Positions 6,785-43,493 of a stretch of DNA of 43,506 nt are shown one piece after another. Source of the stretch: Hymenoscyphus infarciens (Eukaryota; Ascomycota; Leotiomycetes; Helotiales; Helotiaceae). Position 1 is the stretch's first letter. Each line of letters opens with the position of its first letter. The notes below the pieces were generated by a model, which was given only the letters and a program-made list of their open reading frames with translations, made no database searches and was not told the DNA's origin. The stretch spans positions 1 through 43,506 of the forward strand of contig LLCB01000404.1 in the NCBI GenBank assembly GCA_001414345.1, written 5' to 3'. Position numbers and translations under genes: made by a program.

Positions 6785-7816
6785 TTAATCTTTACGAGAA
6801 GTTAATATACTTGATATTTTACTTTTTAATTGTTTATCTAAATCTACTACTTCTTTTATAGATTTAGGATTATCTATATTAACTATTTGTTTAAACCGTT
6901 TCATTTCATATAAAGCTGGTATATTTTTTTTTACATCAGCATGTGTTATACTTTCATACTTATTAATCAATTTAAGAGTTTTATTACGAAGAGCATTAAG
7001 CTCATCGAAATAAATCTTAAGTTCTTTATTTGTATAAGGTTTTGGACTTGCATTTTCGTCGAATGTGATTTCATGCTGTTGCATAAATTTATTTCTCATA
7101 TCTATAATTTCTGAACGTACTGAAGATAATTCTTTATTAGTAATATCTGTATTAAGAGGGCTAATAACTTTTACTGCTTCTATTCTTTGAATAATAGATA
7201 TATTAAAAATCTGATGTTGACTTATAAGTGTTTGCATAATAAAAGAATTGGATTTATTAGCGTTTATTTTAGTAATTCTTTCAGAATAAATATCAGCATT
7301 TATTTTCATTTGCCCCTTAAATTTATTAAACTGTACTTCAAGCTCATCAATGTAAAATTCATCAACTACTTTTTGATAAACTTTAGTTATTAGTTTCTCT
7401 TTTTCTGTAACTTTAGGAGTCTTACTGGTATCTGAAGGCCCATCCATTGTCATAGGAGTTGCTAACTCTACACCGCTAAATAGACTTTGACCATGTACCA
7501 AAGAATTATACAAACCTAAAGGACTAGGCAATATGATATATAATTCAGACAATATAACTTTAAATTGATTTATATATTTAATAGTTGCTGATCAATATAC
7601 ACCTATATCTTTAAATAAATTTAAAGATATATTTTCAAAAAAGCCTAATAAACCTAATCTAGATATTAAGCCTATAAATATAGGACCTAACCATTGAAAA
7701 TTAAAAGTATATATAATATTATCTAATATTGTTATATACACCGTACAATAATCCACGTTAGTAAATATATATTGTCTAAAAAAAGCACCAATAACAATAC
7801 CTAAAAGACCAGCCAA
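6785..7816 (-). CDS. Unrecognised ORF (orf343), membrane N-terminus and coiled-coil-like C-terminus
   Basis: A long open frame begins at the 3' end of cox1 and needs one TGA read as Trp (near 7590) to run to its TAA. There is no in-frame ATG near the front, so the start is uncertain (TTG at 7816, or an alternative codon up to about 11 codons earlier, slightly overlapping the cox1 stop). The first ~130 residues hold three hydrophobic stretches, including LGIVIGAFFRQYIF and LGPIFIGLISRLGLLGF. The remaining ~210 are hydrophilic, Lys/Glu-rich and probably helical. I do not recognise the family. It is followed by cox1 tail remnants, suggesting it came in as an insertion behind cox1. It could be an expressed accessory protein or a decaying import. 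Confidence 0.6.
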
Positions 7817-7839
7817 AATCTTAGGTATTGTTAAGTATT

Positions 7840-13372
<5,533 letters not shown>

Positions 13373-20645: not shown

Positions 20646-20730
20646 TTAAGCATTTAATAGTATTAATGCTAATATATTAGTCTTACTTAATTTTTTTAAG
20701 GGACTATACAATATAATACTATCTCTTCTT
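20646..20730 (-). pseudogene. Duplicated nad2 3' end in front of nad3
   Basis: Bases 20642-20692 match 21151-21202 (the nad2 stop region) with only a few differences, and 20697-20725 match nad2 at about 21265-21294. The intervening ~60 nt are lost. It is a decayed copy of the nad2 terminus, ending LALILLNA then TAA and the nad3 ATG. Confidence 0.8.
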
Positions 20731-20789
20731 CTTTTTTTTCATGCGAAGCCAGAAAAAGAGAGATAGATGAATTTTTCTCTTGCTCATGC

Positions 20790-20822
20790 TTTTTTTTTCT
20801 GCTCTAGTAGAGCAGAAAAAAA
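20790..20822. repeat. Palindrome at the 3' end of orf110
   Basis: TTTTCTGCTCTAGTAGAGCAGAAAA family member abutting the orf110 stop. Confidence 0.8.
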
Positions 20823-21155
20823 TCAGCAGCAACCGCAGGAGCTTATATTTGGGTTTAAATTAGATATAGAACTATGCCCTGTATGTATACTATTTATATT
20901 GGATCTTAAATAAAACTTTGGTTTAACAATCATTAGAGGCGTGCTGATTTTTCCTTTTGCTACGCACAGAAGTCTTGCTCCGCATGCTGAGCAGAAAAAA
21001 AAAAGCATGAGTGCAGGTCTATGAGCAACATAACCGCGTGGAGGTCGACCTATTATAGGTAATGTATTTATTGCGTTATAGGGGTGAGTAGGATTAGCCA
21101 CTATAACTGGTCCTATTCGGCCTCTGGGTCTATTATTTGTGGTGTTGTTTGTCAT
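20823..21155 (-). CDS. Unrecognised ORF (orf110) inserted between nad2 and nad3
   Basis: Encodes 110 residues; its ATG follows the nad2 TAA with no gap, the position nad3 normally holds. The first ~48 residues (RPRGRIGPVIVANPTHP, LPIIGRPPRGYVAHRPAL) look like a genuine protein segment rich in Pro, Gly and Arg. From about residue 50 the frame runs through a copy of the dispersed GCTGATTTTTCC...AGCAGAAAAAA repeat, so the C-terminus is probably repeat-derived. I do not recognise it. The N-terminal part has a spacing pattern like that of the second ORF in cox1 intron 2. It is probably the cargo or remnant of an insertion that duplicated the nad2 tail. Confidence 0.5.
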   Translation of the reverse strand: MTNNTTNNRPRGRIGPVIVANPTHPYNAINTLPIIGRPPRGYVAHRPALMLFFFCSACGARLLCVAKGKISTPLMIVKPKFYLRSNINSIHTGHSSISNLNPNISSCGCC

Positions 21156-23094: not shown

Positions 23095-24444
23095 TTATTT
23101 ATCTTTAAAATAATCTTCAATTAAAAGAGCTAAATTATCTACAATGTAATCTAGTTCTTTATAAGTACATGTAAAGGGAGGAGCTATCATTATGTGGTCA
23201 CCTCTTATACCATCCACGCAACCATAACCGCCATATATTTGCATATTGTATTTAGAAATACTTAAAGCCATTAAATTTTCATTTATTTTCATTTCACGAT
23301 TAAATGGCTCTTTAGTTATTTTATTACAAACAAATTCAATACCATAAAAGAAACCTCTACCTCTAATATTACCAACATAACGATGGCTACTTAACTTAGA
23401 TATTAAAGCCTTTTCTAGATATAAACCTTTTTTAGAGACTTTTTTAACTAAATTTTTTCTTTCTAATATCTCTAATACTTTAATACCTACAGCTGAGTTA
23501 TCTGCTAATGAATTGTAAGTTTGACTACTGAATATAGAACCACCTTTTAATATCTCTTTATAGACTTTATGATTAATCATAACAGCACCTAAAGTTCCGT
23601 GACCAGCACCTAAACCTTTAGCAACTACTTGAATATCTGGACTAACCATATCATATTCTCATGCGTGTAATGTACCCGTTCGACCTATTCCACACATGAC
23701 TTCATCCATGATCACTAAAACACCAAATTCATGACAAACATCACGCATAGCCTTCATATAACCAGGCACAGCGGGCATACAACCCCCTCCTGCTCCCCCT
23801 ACGGGTTCTAATATAAAAGCTATGACCTTTTCAGCCCCTACTTCGATAATTTTTGCTCTTAATTCATCGGCTAATCTATCTACATACATTTTATTCGACT
23901 CATTTTCTAAACGACCACGATATGCATTACATGCGGAAACAAAGTGTACATTTTTAGGTAATACCCCTTCGAATTGTTTTCTGCGCCCTGTATGCCCTGA
24001 TAAGCTTAAAGCTCCCAAAGTTATACCGTGGTATGAAATTCTTCTAGATATATACTCGGTTCTAGAAGATTGCCCTAACATCCTTTGATAAAGTGTGGCA
24101 AGTATTTGAGCTGTTTCTACACCTGTAGACCCAGATACTACCGGATATGACTTACACATTTGTCCCTTAGTACTATTAATTAATAGAGTATTTAACAAAA
24201 GAGAAGGTTTGTTACTGAAATTAGCGGGACTAGTATATATTCCCTTTTTGGCTTGAAGTCTTTTGGCATGTAATATTTCTTTATTACTGTACCCTAAACA
24301 CATAACTGCGGCCCCGCCACTAGCATCAAAAATTACTTTACCATCTACTAAAAAAAGATGCTTATCCTTAGTATAAGCAACTAGGGGGTATTTTTTCTTG
24401 AAGTCACGCTGAAGCGTTGCTTCTTGACTAATAGTAGATATAGA
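23095..24444 (-). CDS. Class III PLP-dependent aminotransferase domain (C-terminal half of the nad5 ORF)
   Basis: About 449 residues, the full size of this family (fold type I, omega-aminotransferase group). Visible features in order: N-terminal [20 protein letters not shown]; phosphate-loop [11 protein letters not shown]; aromatic-stacking [28 protein letters not shown]1 Asp in [19 protein letters not shown] (fusion residue ~972); Schiff-base Lys in [17 protein letters not shown] (~1001); substrate/phosphate Thr region [12 protein letters not shown]-terminal [13 protein letters not shown]. It most resembles a family found in fungal nuclear genomes and bacteria. It has no ATG of its own ahead of conserved sequence, shares Nad5's frame, and uses TGA for the conserved Trp (23659-23661), so it is adapted to mitochondrial decoding. 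Amino donor cannot be told. A basic, Ser-rich segment ([15 protein letters not shown]) just before it resembles a mitochondrial presequence. Confidence 0.9.
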
Positions 24445-27400
24445 ACGAAGGGTTAACCCTTCTAATCTACGCGGATTACTTAATGAATGGAAAGGATGAG
24501 CTTGAAAATTACTTCGCAATGCGGAGTACGGAGTGCGCAGTGCCGAGTGCGGAGTGCGCAGTGCAGAGTGCGCAGTGCGCAGTGCAGAGTGCGGAGTACT
24601 GAGTGCCGAGTGCGGAGTGCGCACGGATAAGTTAAAATTATACAAAGCTAATACAATTAATAATAGCAATAAACTATTGTCTATATTGGCTAAATAAGGT
24701 ATTAATAAATAAAAAATAACACCTATTAAGATATATAAAGCATAACTAGTAATAACTTTAGTATCTAAACTAGCTATATTTCGACTTAAATTAATTAAAC
24801 TTTTTTCTAAACCATATGGTCCTAATAATTCTACACTTCCTTTATCTATAACCTTAGTAGTTTGACCTCCTAATTTTAAAATTAGACCAGTTACATATTT
24901 GTTATAGAAAAGTTCAATTAAGAAACGTTGATTGAAGAATCCAAATATATTGTAACCTAATCTAGTAAATTTAAAAGAAATAAGTATTTTAGGTATAAAT
25001 TCTGATAGAACTATAGCTAAAACACTAAGTGAAATAGTAAATACTAGAGGTAATAATTTAAAGAAAGTCGGTACAGCAAATTCAGTGTCTAACATTATTT
25101 CATGTGTAGGATGAATAAATAAACTATTATCCATAAAGAAACCTGAACCTAACCCTATAAAGATATCTTTAGTTATATAACCAAAGAATATTGAGAATAC
25201 AGCTAATATTATTAAAGGTAAGCTCATAAATATATTACCTTCGTGGGCTCTTTTATCATAGTTAAATACATGGGATTTTAGATGATAATAATTAATCATA
25301 GGCCCATTAGGATTAGTTAAGAAAGTTAAATATAAAACTTTAACTGAGTACAAAGTAGTAAACATAGCACCAATAGTGGCTATAAAGTAAACAACTATAC
25401 CACTAAAGTAAAATTGTCCATAAGCAGATTCTAAAATAAAATCTTTACTATAGAACCCGGTCATAAAAGGGAAGGCAACTAAACTAAGACTAGCTATTAA
25501 CATAACAGAATATGTTAAAGGTAAATATGCTTTTAAACCACCATATTTTCTAAAATCTTGATTATCGGCAACTGCGTGAATTACTGCTCCTGCACCTAAG
25601 AATAATAATGCTTTATAAAAGGCATGATTAACTAAGTGGAATAAAGCTACATTATAAGAAGACAATCCTACTGCTATTACCATCATCCCTAATTGCTTTA
25701 ATACTTGTTATATATTATTTATATACTTTTTTTGGTATCCTCCTAGATTTTAGACTTAATCTACTCACACAAATGGTGCCGATATATCCTTTCTTAAACC
25801 CGAAACAGCTATATACTTTATAATTATACTAGATGAATCTGGGGATACAATACGCCTATCTGGTAAAAATTTAGAGTATATATTAAGATGGTATTTGGAT
25901 TTCATAAGCCGCCAGTGTAAATTATTAGGAGCAACAAATTTCATATCTATTGTTCTTAATTCTAGAACCCTATTAGGTGAAATTTGTGGAATAAAAATAT
26001 TCAAATTAGAATAAAATAACCTATAATTAATATCTTTTGGTGCATTTCAAAAAATACCTTGATATATTTTTCCCTCATAGCCAACTCCCCTAACAAAAAC
26101 CGAATTCCCCATATCTAGACTATATAGGTACTTTAACCAAAAACCAGTATTGTCATTATAATCTATAATACCCCTATAAAGAGAACCCTCTATAATTTTA
26201 GCTATAGGTATTAATGATATATTAATATTTTGTTTACGTATTTCTCCTGGTTTACGTTTTAAGTATCTATTTAAAAGTCATATAGAACCAACTAAACCCA
26301 GTAATATCAAGATGTCCCCTTCATAATCGGTCGGTACATCCCAACCGGGTAATTTTGTAGGAGTTTCCATTAGACCAGATGACAACAAAAAAAGTATTAT
26401 AACTAGCGTATAATATATTTAATATTATTTGGACCATTTCTTTATTAATCTATGTATTTATCTCATCTATCTTTAAATAAAACTCACTCATTTAGTTTAT
26501 ATATATCTTTATTGTTTAAAGATGGACGTTTCTCAAAAAATTCCTTTATTAAATTAACTCTCTTCTGTTTTTTACTTTTTAATGGATATTTAGAAAAATA
26601 ATTATCTACCATATTAAAAACCTCCTGTTTTCTATAAATAATATATTTAAAAGCCTCTGTTTTAGGGCTAGAAATGTCAACTCTACCAGAATAAATTTTT
26701 ATTAAGGGCTCTAATAAATATTTATTTTTCTGAGATGCACTTATAAACACTTGTCCACTTTTTTCATTAAAATAAATTGAACCATCACTGTCTATAAATC
26801 CACTAAATCAGCCATTATTAAAAGTTAAAGGTTTAGTATCCAACAAATCAATATTATATTTTACGCATAATTTGTTCATTTGCAATATTCGAGTTGGATT
26901 TCTTATTAAACCGTTTACAGCATTTATTAAACACATTAAACCTTTTTTATGGCTTAGCTGATATCTTAAGGCATTTGCATTAGATATAGTATATATAGAA
27001 CCTCCAAATTTATGTTTTATTTCATATAGTACTTGTTTATCCCTAATATCCATAACGACATTAAAACGTGCAGTTCCTTTTTTAGTTAAATGAAAATAAC
27101 CATCTCCATCTATCACACCCGCTAATCATTCATAAAAAGGTAGAGAGGTTTGTTTATGGTTTTCGGAGTTAAATTCATTAACAGAGTTAACATCCTTCAC
27201 TGGGTTAACAACATTCACTGTTTTCATAAAATCCCTCTGAGTTAAATTAATAGGGCTAGTGTCAAGGCAACCCTCCGCGGAGTAGTTTGTAAACTCTGCT
27301 AATTCTACTTCAATTGAGTATGGGTTAAACCAAAATTCATTTAAATTATCATATATGTGAACTAACTTTAAAAAGAAACGCTGTAAACATAGACATATTA

Positions 27401-30250
27401 ATTTATAAAGTATATTTAAGATTAGATTAAGGTAGTACTGTTGCTGGGATCCCTCTACCAAAAATAACCCAGTAAAAGGGATTAATACCGCAAAAGCAAA
27501 TACCCCTAAAAAATAGATTAATATCAAACGTATGGCCTCTGAGATTCCTACTAACTTGCTTATAATATTAACTTTTCATTTTTCTGACATGATTATATAA
27601 TTTAACATATAACAGTACTGCCGTAATATATATATTGCGGAAAATGAATTAAAAAAGCTAATACTAATATAATTATCATACAGATAATTATGAGCTTTGG
27701 TTATCTGCGAATTGGTTATATAAATAACTTCTACGCATATAGTTTGATGCCTGAACATATCAATATTATTAATACATTCTCGAGCCATTTGACTCATAGT
27801 GGAGTAGGCGATAACTTTTTTAATATCTTGTTGGAATAAACCAATAAGACTACTAAATACAGTAGTAATTGCACCTAATCATAAACATAGTATTAAAACA
27901 GTTGAGCTGTATTCTATTAAGGGACTTGTACGCATAAGTAAATACACACCTGCTGTTACCATTGTGGCGGCATGTATTAATGCAGAAACTGGTGTAGGAC
28001 CCTCCATTGCCATAGGCAATCATACGTGAAGACCAACTTGAGAACTTTTAGCCATTGCACCAATTAATAAGCATATACCAATAATTGTAACAATATTTTC
28101 ATTAACAAAAGGTGCCAATGAGAAGACAGTACTGTAATCAATGTTCAATTTATATATAGTCTTTCAACTATACTTGGACTATATCTTCACCCTGTAGTGG
28201 TTGGATTAATTGCTTTTATTATCATATTTAAGACTTACGCTATTACTCCTTGTGCGAGCCTAATAAAGGCCGATATAAATAAGAGAACCCTGCTATATAT
28301 ATACAGATAGATAATGTAAGGCTAACCTCATATTTACGGAAAAATGCCTATCACAGCAATGAAATAAAACGAAACCTTTTTTCATGCTTCGCATGAAAAA
28401 AGGAAGTTAATCACTTATTACATTCGCTTTTCTACAGGGGGTATAACGTGTAGTCTCTGAGGATCTTATTCTTAATCTAACATTAAGTTTCATTTCCTGC
28501 GTATTGTCCATTGTCACTAATCTAATTTAACTTAAATAAGATCTATTCTTTTAATGTTTATGGTTTGTGTAGGCTCTACTCTTTTATGGCTGCATGTTAT
28601 AACATGAACCGTAGAAAAAGCTATAATCAAAGTTTCCACAATATCCTATAAAAAGACTTTAGGAGTTTCACGACATATAGTTATATAATAAGGGTAATAT
28701 TACTACTACCCACGGCAACATTAAAATGTTAAACTATCCAAATGAGAGAAATTATATATTTTACGCTTATTATTAAATTGATTTTTTATTGCTTTAATAT
28801 CGGCAATATCCTGTTTACTTAAAGAAACTCCTCTATGGATATTTTGAGTTTGGCATCAATCTTTATAAGCTAGATATTTAGAAGAATATAGAGGGAAACG
28901 ATCAAAGTAATTACGAACTATATCATGACTTATTCTGTTATGGGCTATAACCATAAAAGCGTAAAAAACTTTGTCATCTCTATTTCTAGTTCTGGTATAG
29001 AGATTTACAGTCAAAAATTCTGCAATTTTAGTCATAATACTAAAATAACTAGCCCCTCCTTGATCTGAGGTAACATTTCTAGAATAGTTTTGTTTAACTT
29101 CTATACGGAAAAATGTTTGAACCTGAGTTCTGACAGCTTTGTTCTTTTTACGGTCATAAAGAGAAATAGAGAAATTACCATCTGCATCGGTAAAACCGGC
29201 CAACCATGCATTACTATCGAGAGATGATGTGTCTAAACCTAAACAAGGTATAACACTTTTATCATTTTCATTTATCCAATTTATAGCTCTATGTAAAGCT
29301 TCTATCTTTGGAGTACGCATACGGCCATTAATTATATTAATGATTTTTAATACTTCTTTTTTGGCTAATATTTGTAGTAAAACATGGCCAGCACTAGATC
29401 TGTCTATTACTTTACCTACTTTCAAAAGATAAGATAATTTTACTGCTAAAGGTCTATCATTGATATTGAAAACAATAAGAATTTTGGGACGATAAATTTT
29501 AGATTTAGATGTTTTATCGTGCACAGCGATATGACCATCACCCTCTATTAATCCTGCTAAGTATGACCCTATATTGTCACTAGAAAAAGAATGTCTCTTT
29601 TCTTTGTAATCTAAAGTATTTGTACTATAAAAAAATCTCTGCATTGTGCTCTGAATATATTTAAACATTTTTGAATATTTACCAAATGATCACAGGATAG
29701 CAAACATACCAATTGTTAAAAAACAATCACCCACTCTGTTAGTTAAGAAAGCAGACATAGAACTTTGATTTGCTGCAATTCTAGTAAACCAGAAACTAAT
29801 TAGAAGATACGAACAAATACCTACACCCTCTCACCCCACAAACATTAATAAAAAATTATTAGCTGTTACAAGTATAATCATCATAAATGTGAATAAACTT
29901 AAATAACTAAAGAACCTTTGATTGTGTGGATCGTGGCTCATATATCCTATAGAATATATGTGCACTAAAGAACTAACTATTAAAACAGGTATCAACATAG
30001 ATACAGTTAAACTATCAAAATGGAAACCTCATGAAACATTTAGAGATTCACTATCTATTCATCTAAATAGGTTTATAGAGACAGGTATGTTATTTAAACC
30101 TACTTCAAAAAAGGCAACCATGGCTAATAAAGTTGTTACAATTACACATGTACATGTAATTAATTGCGCTCCGCTAACACCGACTTTTCTACCAAAAAAT
30201 CCGGAAACTATTGATCCTAATAAAGGTAAAGTAATTATAGCTAAATACAT
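23095..30250 (-). CDS. nad5: NADH dehydrogenase subunit 5 fused to a class III aminotransferase
   Basis: Exons 29681-30250, 27792-28145 and 23095-25695 join to 3525 nt (1174 residues). Residues 1 to about 665 are a complete Nad5: [73 protein letters not shown], and the long lateral helix ending in [21 protein letters not shown]. This subunit is the distal proton pump of complex I. Instead of a stop, the frame goes on through about five TPHSALR-like heptapeptides, a ten-residue cox3-like piece ([10 protein letters not shown]), and a full aminotransferase (about 726-1174). The ATG overlaps the nad4L stop by one base (TAATG). Two group I introns interrupt the Nad5 part. Whether the product is cleaved is unknown. 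Confidence 0.93.
24486..24514 (-). repeat. 29-bp copy of the cox3 N-terminal coding sequence
   Basis: Matches 43448-43476 (also 35-63) at 28 of 29 positions, in the same reading frame, giving [10 protein letters not shown] in both proteins. It forms the junction between the heptapeptide repeat and the aminotransferase. Confidence 0.9.
24523..24620 (-). repeat. 14 x 7-bp tandem repeat inside the nad5-aminotransferase frame
   Basis: Plus-strand unit NNAGTGC (mostly GGAGTGC, GCAGTGC, CGAGTGC, AGAGTGC). Because 7 is not a multiple of 3, three units make one 21-bp period, read as the heptapeptide TPHSALR. Far more GC-rich than its surroundings. Confidence 0.95.
25756..26370 (-). CDS. Unrecognised second ORF in nad5 intron 2 (orf204)
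   Basis: Starts at an ATG and runs 204 residues with TGA Trp codons near 26279, 26050 and 25766. One predicted N-terminal membrane helix ([18 protein letters not shown]) preceded by a short acidic, Pro-containing head, followed by a basic stretch ([11 protein letters not shown]) and a ~150-residue soluble domain rich in Tyr, Ile and Asn. No endonuclease motif and no resemblance I can name. It is downstream of the endonuclease stop by 74 bp. Its length, ATG and single-pass topology favour a real protein, but expression from inside an intron is unproven. Confidence 0.6.
26445..27791 (-). CDS. LAGLIDADG homing endonuclease in nad5 intron 2
   Basis: Continuous with nad5 exon 2, about 449 intron codons. 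A long N-terminal extension (~220 residues) with hydrophobic stretches precedes the two catalytic motifs [11 protein letters not shown] and [11 protein letters not shown], which are about 115 residues apart. TGA Trp codons occur near 27575, 27125, 26807 and 26483. C-terminal [17 protein letters not shown] is typical. Both motif aspartates are present. The unusual N-terminal extension may be removed by proteolysis. Confidence 0.86.
27792..28145 (-). other. nad5: nad5 exon 2
   Basis: Encodes [18 protein letters not shown] to IAYSTMS, 118 codons, including the [20 protein letters not shown] antiporter signature with its essential lysine and the HAATMVTAG helix. Between introns 1 and 2. Confidence 0.93.
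28146..29680 (-). other. nad5 intron 1 (group I)
   Basis: Inserted at WSFG|NIDYS; exon ends TTTGGT, intron ends AATTG. 1535 nt. Core elements CAGAGACTACACG (about 28450) and a GATATAGTCC match (about 28178) on the minus strand. A hairpin TTTTTTCATGC/GCATGAAAAAA lies at about 28378-28402. Confidence 0.86.
28721..29668 (-). CDS. LAGLIDADG homing endonuclease in nad5 intron 1
   Basis: An internal ATG (29668) lies four codons inside the intron; the frame is also continuous with nad5 exon 1. About 315 residues with motifs [11 protein letters not shown] and, some 115 residues later, [11 protein letters not shown], so a two-motif single-chain enzyme. C-terminal segments [14 protein letters not shown] and [18 protein letters not shown] are typical. 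One TGA Trp (28853-28855). No disabling change seen; it should be able to cut intronless nad5. Confidence 0.9.
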
Positions 30251-42061: not shown

Positions 42062-43493
42062 TTATGAACCTCAATAATAGATAGAAATATATAAAAAAAG
42101 TCATACCACATCTACAAAATGTCAGTATAATATACCAGATTCTAAACCCAAATGATGATTTTCAGTTGAGTGGTAAGCCAGAACACGTCATAAACCCACT
42201 GCTATAAAAGCTGTACCTATCATAACGTGTACAAAAAATTTCAATAATTCACATTATTGTTTAGACTATGTCATCATATTAATTATCTTTAAATGAAATT
42301 ATAATTTAAATAATATGTAGAGTTTAATGCCATTCTTTTACTTTAAGTATTTAAAGTAAGATAATATTTATTAGCTAGTCGTTGAACCTTTAGATACGTT
42401 AGTTACAATATCTACTAGGAAGCAAATTATCTTATAATAAGACTTTCTTGCTATTGACTCTATTTTCAATTTATAAATATATATTAACTTAAAACCCAAA
42501 TATACCCTTTATAAATTCCACCTGTATTTGTTGTTTTTTTTTAATGCAATGGTTAATTTATTACAACATGAAGACTTTTAGCACAATCAGTAAAACTAGT
42601 ACATATAGTTTTATTATTACTACTATCTGTATCAACAATATTCTTGCGTACGAAGTAAGAGCAGGCTTCACTTATTAACTTGTCAGTATTTCAATGATAT
42701 CTCACTCCTTTAATTTCGTATGGGCTGTCTAATAAATAGATAGCTTCTATATTTATAAAAGATGGTAGAGTAATTAAGAGTTTATTTATTTTTATTATAA
42801 AGTACTTTTAAATTTATATATATATATAAAGGGGGCTACACATATGTTGGTTAACCCATGAAAGCCGGTACCAAAATAGAAACATGAACCAAAAATACCA
42901 TCACTTATAGTAAAAGAAGACACAGTATATTCTATACCCTGGAAACCAGTAAATATTACTGCCAATACCACAGTAGCCACTAAACCATTTAAAGCTCCGG
43001 TTCGGTTTCCTTGTATTAAAGAATGGTGAGCATATGTTACAGTAACACCAGATGATAATAATATAACCGTATTAAGTAGTGGTAATTCAAACGGATTAAT
43101 TGCTTCTATACCCATAGGTGGTCATTGAGCACCTAATTCTACGGTAGGTGCTAATGCACTATGAAAGTACGCTCAAAAGATAGCTAAAAAGAATAATGCT
43201 TCAGATACTATAAATAAAGCCACACCCATATTTAATCCTCTTTGGACTGCTAAGGTATGATTACCTAAATAAGTACCTTCACTAATAACATCCCGTCATC
43301 AGAAAGACATTGAAGAAATAAGTAAGACCAAAGCTAACAAAGCAAAATTTCCTGCATGTGGGAAAGCATGCATAGTTGATACTCCGCTAGTTGTTAATGT
43401 TAGTAAAGCCAAAGAAGTATAAATAGGTCAAGGTGACGGTGATACTAAATGAAAAGGATGAGCTTGAAAATTACTTCTCGTTATATTGGTCAT
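42062..43493 (-). CDS. cox3: Cytochrome c oxidase subunit 3, two exons
   Basis: Exons 42854-43493 and 42062-42231 join to 810 nt (269 residues, the usual length). Core membrane subunit of complex IV. Recognisable: [18 protein letters not shown] at the N-terminus, [51 protein letters not shown] across the splice, and the C-terminal [22 protein letters not shown] Trp codons throughout. ATG at 43493; the same start is seen at 80 because of the circular overlap. A 29-bp in-frame piece of exon 1 is duplicated in the nad5-aminotransferase linker. Confidence 0.97.
42232..42853 (-). other. cox3 intron (group I, no ORF)
   Basis: 622 nt; exon ends CATGGGT, intron ends TTTTTTG. The core element GACATAGTCTAAAC lies at about 42258-42275. 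No open frame of note; the frame from exon 1 stops after about 17 codons. Confidence 0.85.

Follow-up and report, generated by a model that had tools for sequence, protein, structure and literature searches.

The stretch analysed here is the 43,506-nucleotide contig LLCB01000404.1 of Hymenoscyphus infarciens (GenBank assembly GCA_001414345.1), hereafter the window. It is contig 340 within an assembly of 742 contigs and 65.6 Mb, and genome-wide statements refer to those contigs. The window contains rRNA and tRNA genes as well as the protein genes of an ascomycete mitochondrial DNA (mtDNA), kept open by genetic code 4, and its two ends share the same 93 bases, as in a closed circle. On its minus strand, the last exon of nad5 is joined in frame to a class III aminotransferase (hereafter AT) within a single open reading frame (ORF). 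In this assembly, the only complete nad5 continues into an aminotransferase of fungal descent; we consider it rather probable that this enzyme gene was copied from the nucleus and would be translated by riding on nad5.

The joined gene extends over 23095–25692 according to the ORF and to Pfam matches. In code 4, the ORF (25686–23095) encodes 863 amino acids and finishes on a TAA stop (23097–23095); the exon starts at about 25692 and the frame remains open, from stop to stop, for 870 codons across the last exon of nad5 and AT. Pfam placed the Proton_antipo_M and NADH5_C domains inside residues 2–328 of the fusion protein and Aminotran_3 (PF00202) at residues 439–852, with an E-value of 4.9e-65 and a score of 220.2 bits (cut-off 30.5) over positions 14–399 of the 403 of the model. 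Past Nad5, Aminotran_3 was the only Pfam domain. The Nad5 C-terminal part (residues 1–350 of the fusion protein, P0001; 24637–25692, minus strand), delimited by PDB match, hydropathy and alignment, includes a hydrophobic end of 16 residues, up to which it matches the solved Nad5 chain 7zm7_5 (E-value 1e-157 in a PDB sequence search), which we take to come from the Chaetomium Nad5 structure. A linker of 70 codons (residues 351–420; 24427–24636, minus strand) leads to the aminotransferase domain (residues 421–863; 23098–24426, minus strand), delimited by Pfam, an AlphaFold2 (AF2) model and Foldseek.

Within this domain, Lys690 (23617–23619), by its motif presumably the Schiff-base lysine, is invariant in 37 aligned sequences, and Asp661 (23704–23706), which we take to be the aspartate that binds pyridoxal phosphate (PLP), occupies an invariant column. 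The single TGA codon of the fusion ORF (23661–23659) reads as Trp676 of the motif TLHAW in code 4, and this Trp column is invariant in the alignment. An earlier note on this DNA had claimed that a complete class III aminotransferase is fused in frame to Nad5, that it retains the PLP-binding Asp and Schiff-base Lys motifs and that a TGA at the conserved Trp of TLHAW is its sole break under the standard code; the Pfam matches and the open frame, on the minus strand that the note left unstated, bear out all of this. Its suggestion that AT has been fitted to the mitochondrial code agrees with the codon use as well as with the TGA. The G+C content of AT is 0.345 (Nad5 part, 0.266; linker, 0.505), its Leu codons are rich in TTA, and its values at the first, second and third codon positions (GC1, GC2 and GC3) are 0.45, 0.367 and 0.214. 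For comparison, GC3 is 0.151 in the Nad5 part and 0.514 in a 951-base part of the nuclear orthologue. Since GC3 is near the mtDNA value and GC1 and GC2 are higher, the pattern is as under protein-level selection.

The linker itself is composite. It holds a copy of the cox3 5′ end (24486–24515, minus strand; 29 of 30 bases, coding SNFQAHPFH, with no such match expected by shuffling), the counterpart of which lies in cox3 at 43448–43477 (minus strand) and again at 35–64 in the terminal overlap. It also holds a GC-rich tandem repeat of 7 and 21 bp (24515–24623, minus strand; Tandem Repeats Finder) encoding TPHSALR-like units, with eight matches against none expected, all within the array.

The nad5 gene is whole in the window, in three exon blocks. 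A tblastn search with the homologue P0138 located the first at approximately 29660–30250 (95% identity) and the middle one at approximately 27771–28145 (96% identity), and a search with the whole Nad5 located the last at 25701–24673, all on the minus strand. We found no second complete nad5 in the assembly, where the whole-Nad5 query matched the three window blocks and short fragments on contigs C184 and C16, and where the fusion protein as query gave, beyond the nad5 of the window, one 33-residue Nad5 match on contig C603. Nor did tblastn find a second native Nad5 C-terminus in the window, where it returned the three nad5 blocks and weak matches within nad2 and nad4. The Nad5-like fragments lie at 204147–204236 on C603, 48361–48570 on C184 and 22896–22994 on C16; the one on C603, which matches Nad5 residues 135–167 at 87%, holds a stretch that is inserted relative to five aligned Nad5 sequences.

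Joins to other respiratory genes and tails of Nad5

We compared AT with 209 distinct homologues, made up of the best 120 of 259 and the best 120 of 4228 matches, which are partly shared. A respiratory protein stands in frame ahead of the aminotransferase in seven of these listed homologues, which are probably of fungal origin. It is Nad5 in two of them (P0004, with six member sequences, and P0005, with three) and Nad3 in another two (P0035, with one member sequence, and P0312, with five), all recognized by Pfam. In the remaining three it is Atp9, found in P0113 by Pfam and by BLAST to the window Atp9 (94.6% over 74 columns), or an Atp9-like protein, found by BLAST in P0007 (61% over 67 columns) and P0282 (78% over 37 columns). 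The linkers of the three Nad5::AT proteins (window, P0004 and P0005) differ from one another in the alignment. The earlier note knew of no standard mitochondrial gene for this enzyme, a view overtaken by the relatives that exist in ascomycete mtDNA and by the two further Nad5 joins.

In P0113 and P0007, a stretch of 13 residues resembling the Cox1 C-terminus lies between Atp9 and the aminotransferase. Such leaders occur in 5 of the 209 homologues and in none of the 209 domain bodies, using a pattern defined after seeing some of them; BLAST backs four of the five, P0002 weakly (E-value 0.013). When P0113 is excluded, so that long branches are not drawn together, the window AT clusters with P0007, P0267 and P0296, three proteins with Cox1 leaders (support 81/82), and apart from the other Nad5 joins. 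Forcing the three Nad5 joins into one AT clade was rejected by the approximately unbiased (AU) test (p = 0.0203; p = 0.0061 without P0113), in trees with long branches. nad5 therefore seems to have received AT at least twice, a conclusion to be taken with the caution that long branches demand.

We also examined the 120 listed Nad5 homologues (P0122–P0239 together with P0004 and P0005). Their tails form several families without BLAST similarity to one another, of which the largest has 21 related tails, and among the listed tails of more than 60 residues only those of P0004 and P0005 match the window AT. A Pfam scan of nine tailed Nad5 proteins detected no tail domain above the cut-off, with a weak DUF2569 match in P0205. 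The Nad5 proteins closest to that of the window along the tree (P0124, P0123, P0128, P0126 and P0122) bear tails of 169–414 residues belonging to two other families. Behind cox1 in the window, an ORF (6785–7858, minus strand) is homologous to the Nad5 tail of P0212 (27%, E-value 6e-22), a tail which itself holds a weak Cox1-like scrap (E-value 0.007). The first ATG, GTG or TTG start of this ORF is the TTG at 7816, and its overlap with the cox1 stop, in a different frame, measures 19 bases. We considered it as an in-frame Cox1 tail and ruled this out, given the cox1 stop at 7840 and the different frame. Because a homologue of the P0212 tail sits behind cox1 in the window, such modules appear to move between the 3′ ends of core genes.

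It is possible, at somewhat less than an even chance, that the aminotransferase gene is a mobile 3′ passenger of oxidative phosphorylation genes in ascomycete mtDNA. It would have joined nad5 at least twice as well as nad3 and atp9, the Cox1 and cox3 scraps would mark earlier stops, and it would be expressed solely through in-frame fusions, which would afterwards be cut or stay as tethers.

Elsewhere in the window, 17 TCA repeats (12785–12836) encode a run of Trp (TGA) within the frame 13474–12692, which contains the initial part of cox1. A 169-residue ORF (20646–21155, minus strand) fills the interval between nad2 and nad3 with no gap and ends in NILALILLNA, repeating a ten-residue Nad2 end as if an insertion had rebuilt the junction; C-terminal duplications of this kind are described for insertions of mobile ORFs (mORFs) in the consulted part of PMC3630166.

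Retention, possible expression and descent of the enzyme

To be translated, a gene residing in mtDNA must have a start as well as the activators on which fungal mitochondrial translation relies. A new mitochondrial ORF devoid of its own translation-activation signal would gain one at the 3′ end of a core gene. In the case of AT, the junction may have arisen when short mitochondrial repeats and scraps of genes recombined, the scraps being the cox3 5′ end in the window and the Cox1 C-terminus in its relatives. The long and variable linker would then be cut or serve as a flexible tether, so that the enzyme could form a dimer and act, within the mitochondrion, on an amino acid or amine. Because class III enzymes are dimeric and their active sites are shared between the subunits, a cut in the linker, which varies among the Nad5 joins, would be more likely than a permanent tether.

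Several observations weigh against this reading. A dimeric class III enzyme would be hard to reconcile with an uncut tether to a complex I subunit present in a single copy. AT retains 60 of the 62 columns that are invariant in the 36 other aligned homologues, which speaks for the reading, but the other two are changed, as E119T (the Glu of the GSEA stretch) and K126I. Further changes include A120G, H318S and G319S, so that parts of the GSEA and HGQTY stretches are lost. Of the columns conserved at the 95% level, 75 of 88 are kept, the other homologues ranging from 72 of 85 (nuclear P0109) to all. AT is also among the most divergent members of the family, with 39–48% identity to the 36 aligned homologues and an end branch of 1.27–2.34 (the branch of P0113 is longer in the trees that include it). 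From its sequence, AT may be a genuine enzyme whose specificity has shifted or loosened, or one whose function is perhaps relaxed. As to its relatives, the seven other joins are protein predictions, which are open by definition, and broken junctions would go unlisted. Whereas the AT part rejects a single origin for the three Nad5 joins, the Nad5 parts alone do not (p = 0.439), and long branches may bias the AT clade tests. Where a relative carries neither a joined gene nor a label, composition is the sole pointer to an mtDNA location.

We regard as unlikely that AT is a passenger in decay, captured and joined to nad5 and now relaxed, with a tail tolerated as proteases trim Nad5. Its divergence and its two lost invariant positions would fit this history. 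So would the abundance of Nad5 tails, which extend beyond the aligned core by more than 60 residues in 71 of the 120 listed Nad5 homologues; being so common, such tails are therefore likely tolerated. Against decay, the 443 codons of the AT part contain no frameshift and no in-frame stop, whereas about 26 stops are expected (mean of 1000 shuffles; minimum 11), and the other two minus-strand frames of the same stretch hold 45 and 43. The excess of GC1 and GC2 over GC3 also argues against it, as does the retention of Lys690, Asp661, Tyr552, Thr723 and Arg775, the last three of which we likewise take to be class III aminotransferase motif residues. Finally, AT is predicted with high confidence to adopt a transaminase fold: the AF2 model reached a pLDDT of 89.5 and a pTM of 0.89, and Foldseek listed 50 PDB transaminase matches with TM scores (query) of 0.85–0.90.

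Less probable still is that AT is made as a separate protein, from a non-ATG internal start or after RNA cleavage in the linker, the open frame being merely a consequence of tight packing. Two codons on the minus strand could be such starts judging from the sequence, a TTG (24519–24517) just ahead of the cox3-like stretch and a GTG (24624–24622). According to the consulted part of PMC3434094, cox1 starts with TTG and cox3 with GTG in the helotialean Phialocephala subalpina, and cox1 and the next ORF overlap in the window too. However, the 70 linker codons are all open, and so are the different linkers of the two other Nad5::AT proteins (by definition, as these are predictions). Between residues 199 and 461, the fusion ORF has no ATG in frame and, therefore, AT lacks such a start at its own beginning. 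The dependence of AT on nad5 for its translation, as advanced in the earlier note, is plausible on this account, although a non-ATG internal start is possible.

An assembly join between nad5 and nuclear or contaminating sequence is very improbable, the unusual architecture being the sole point in its favour. AT is flanked by mtDNA on both sides, the contig ends overlap, and AT DNA matched only the window itself in the assembly (in a search that skips simple repeats). The TGA-encoded Trp and the mitochondrial codon use also oppose a chimera, as do the closest nuclear match, which is just 46% identical, and the two further Nad5::AT proteins (P0004 and P0005), which come from separate datasets. 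A direct transfer of the gene from a bacterium into mtDNA has the slimmest chance of all: although the family is widespread in Pseudomonadota (at least 516 relatives, of which 80 loci were kept), trees rooted on 11 or on 4 bacterial rows both separate bacteria from fungi at 100/100 with the window AT on the fungal side, and a bacterial donor is not supported.

Between the two sources proposed earlier, nucleus or bacterium, the trees thus favour a fungal, nuclear one. The tree against fungal proteins and other mtDNAs that had been suggested as a check places the window AT inside the fungi, where it belongs to a clade made up of Leotiomycete nuclear genes and of mitochondrial or mitochondrial-like ones (support of 100/99 and 100/100 in the two rooted trees). 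The same assembly carries a nuclear orthologue on contig C89, which reads through once two inferred introns are removed; neither is present in the mtDNA copy. This orthologue is sister to an aminotransferase of Hymenoscyphus albidus (100/100), a single-gene placement that points to a host in the Helotiales, probably close to that genus. Since the nuclear orthologue persists and the mtDNA copy has no introns, the transfer would likely have been a copy, perhaps via RNA. The phylogenetic placement thus makes it likely that the AT gene was copied from the nucleus and is of fungal descent. A search of viral contigs with the fusion protein gave no match, and one bacterial contig matched when an AT alignment was the query.

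A single clade of mitochondrial aminotransferases was not rejected with P0040 added (p = 0.502) and was borderline without it (p = 0.0522), and 17 rows share one side of a branch at 49/82. A composition index of at least 0.95 was reached by 42 of the 209 homologues, including two Pyrenophora proteins on long contigs that are likely nuclear; because these two pass the index, composition is only a hint of an mtDNA location. Two Diaporthe proteins, P0255 and P0257, also on long contigs and likely nuclear, nest among mitochondrial-type copies in a quick tree, a placement that could reflect a return from mtDNA to the nucleus.

Meaning of the join and known systems

Gene flow is usually told as running from the mitochondrion to the nucleus. 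Here, an aminotransferase of nuclear kin lies in mtDNA while a nuclear copy is still present in the assembly, and its frame follows on from the sole complete nad5, an essential gene of complex I. If its product is made, the gene would show an expression route for genes without mitochondrial translation signals, and would be a natural case of an enzyme produced either in one piece with a respiratory subunit or alongside it. If the gene is a mobile passenger of respiratory genes, it would illustrate a route by which a nuclear gene without its own translation signals can go back to an organelle genome. The repeated joins to Nad5, Nad3 and Atp9 make the idea testable across fungi, beyond one genome.

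Aminotransferases have been met in fungal mtDNA before. The consulted part of PMC6140425 describes a gene similar to class III aminotransferases in the mtDNA of Annulohypoxylon stygium. For Pestalotiopsis fici, the part consulted of a review (PMC11277600) gives a standalone aminotransferase, whereas PMC6140425 names an N-acetyltransferase for the same species. In the databases, P0265 and P0269 are labelled as Apiospora (mitochondrion) and P0241 as Juglanconis oblonga, with no mitochondrial label shown. These mtDNA genes belong to the same enzyme family as the window AT, and P0265 and P0241 fall in its wider clade. However, the reported aminotransferases are, as far as those sources go, intergenic (between atp9 and cox2) or standalone, whereas the window AT stands in frame on nad5, is more divergent and lacks the free-standing ORF of the Annulohypoxylon and Apiospora type.

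The join itself resembles the mORF gene hybrids of Glomus sp. (atp6, atp9, cox2 and nad3), which were also found in mRNA, and of Allomyces macrogynus (atp6), in the consulted part of PMC3630166. There, as in the window, a foreign ORF continues a core gene in phase at its 3′ end. The passengers differ, being homing endonucleases (LAGLIDADG or GIY-YIG) in the described hybrids and a metabolic enzyme in the window. In addition, the described insertions brought a replacement C-terminus and left a second, native one behind, whereas no second Nad5 C-terminus was found in the window. The Nad5 tails of other mtDNAs, including those of the nearest relatives, are likewise in-frame extensions beyond the conserved Nad5 end, but, unlike that of the window, they had no Pfam domain above the cut-off in the nine proteins scanned.

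Wai and colleagues reportedly described, in 2019, mitochondrial N-acetyltransferases in ascomycetes, as told in papers citing them. One such gene is present in the mtDNA of Phialocephala subalpina (PMC3434094, part consulted). Like the window AT, these are transferase genes with nuclear homologues resident in ascomycete mtDNA; unlike it, they belong to another enzyme family and, in the portions of the literature covered, are free or intron-encoded ORFs not located on nad5. In that literature, judged mostly by titles and the beginnings of abstracts, we came across no description of a metabolic enzyme fused in frame to Nad5, Nad3 or Atp9. Mitochondrial aminotransferases and endonuclease hybrids are thus already in print and, within the same scope, what is new here is an enzyme joined to a respiratory gene.

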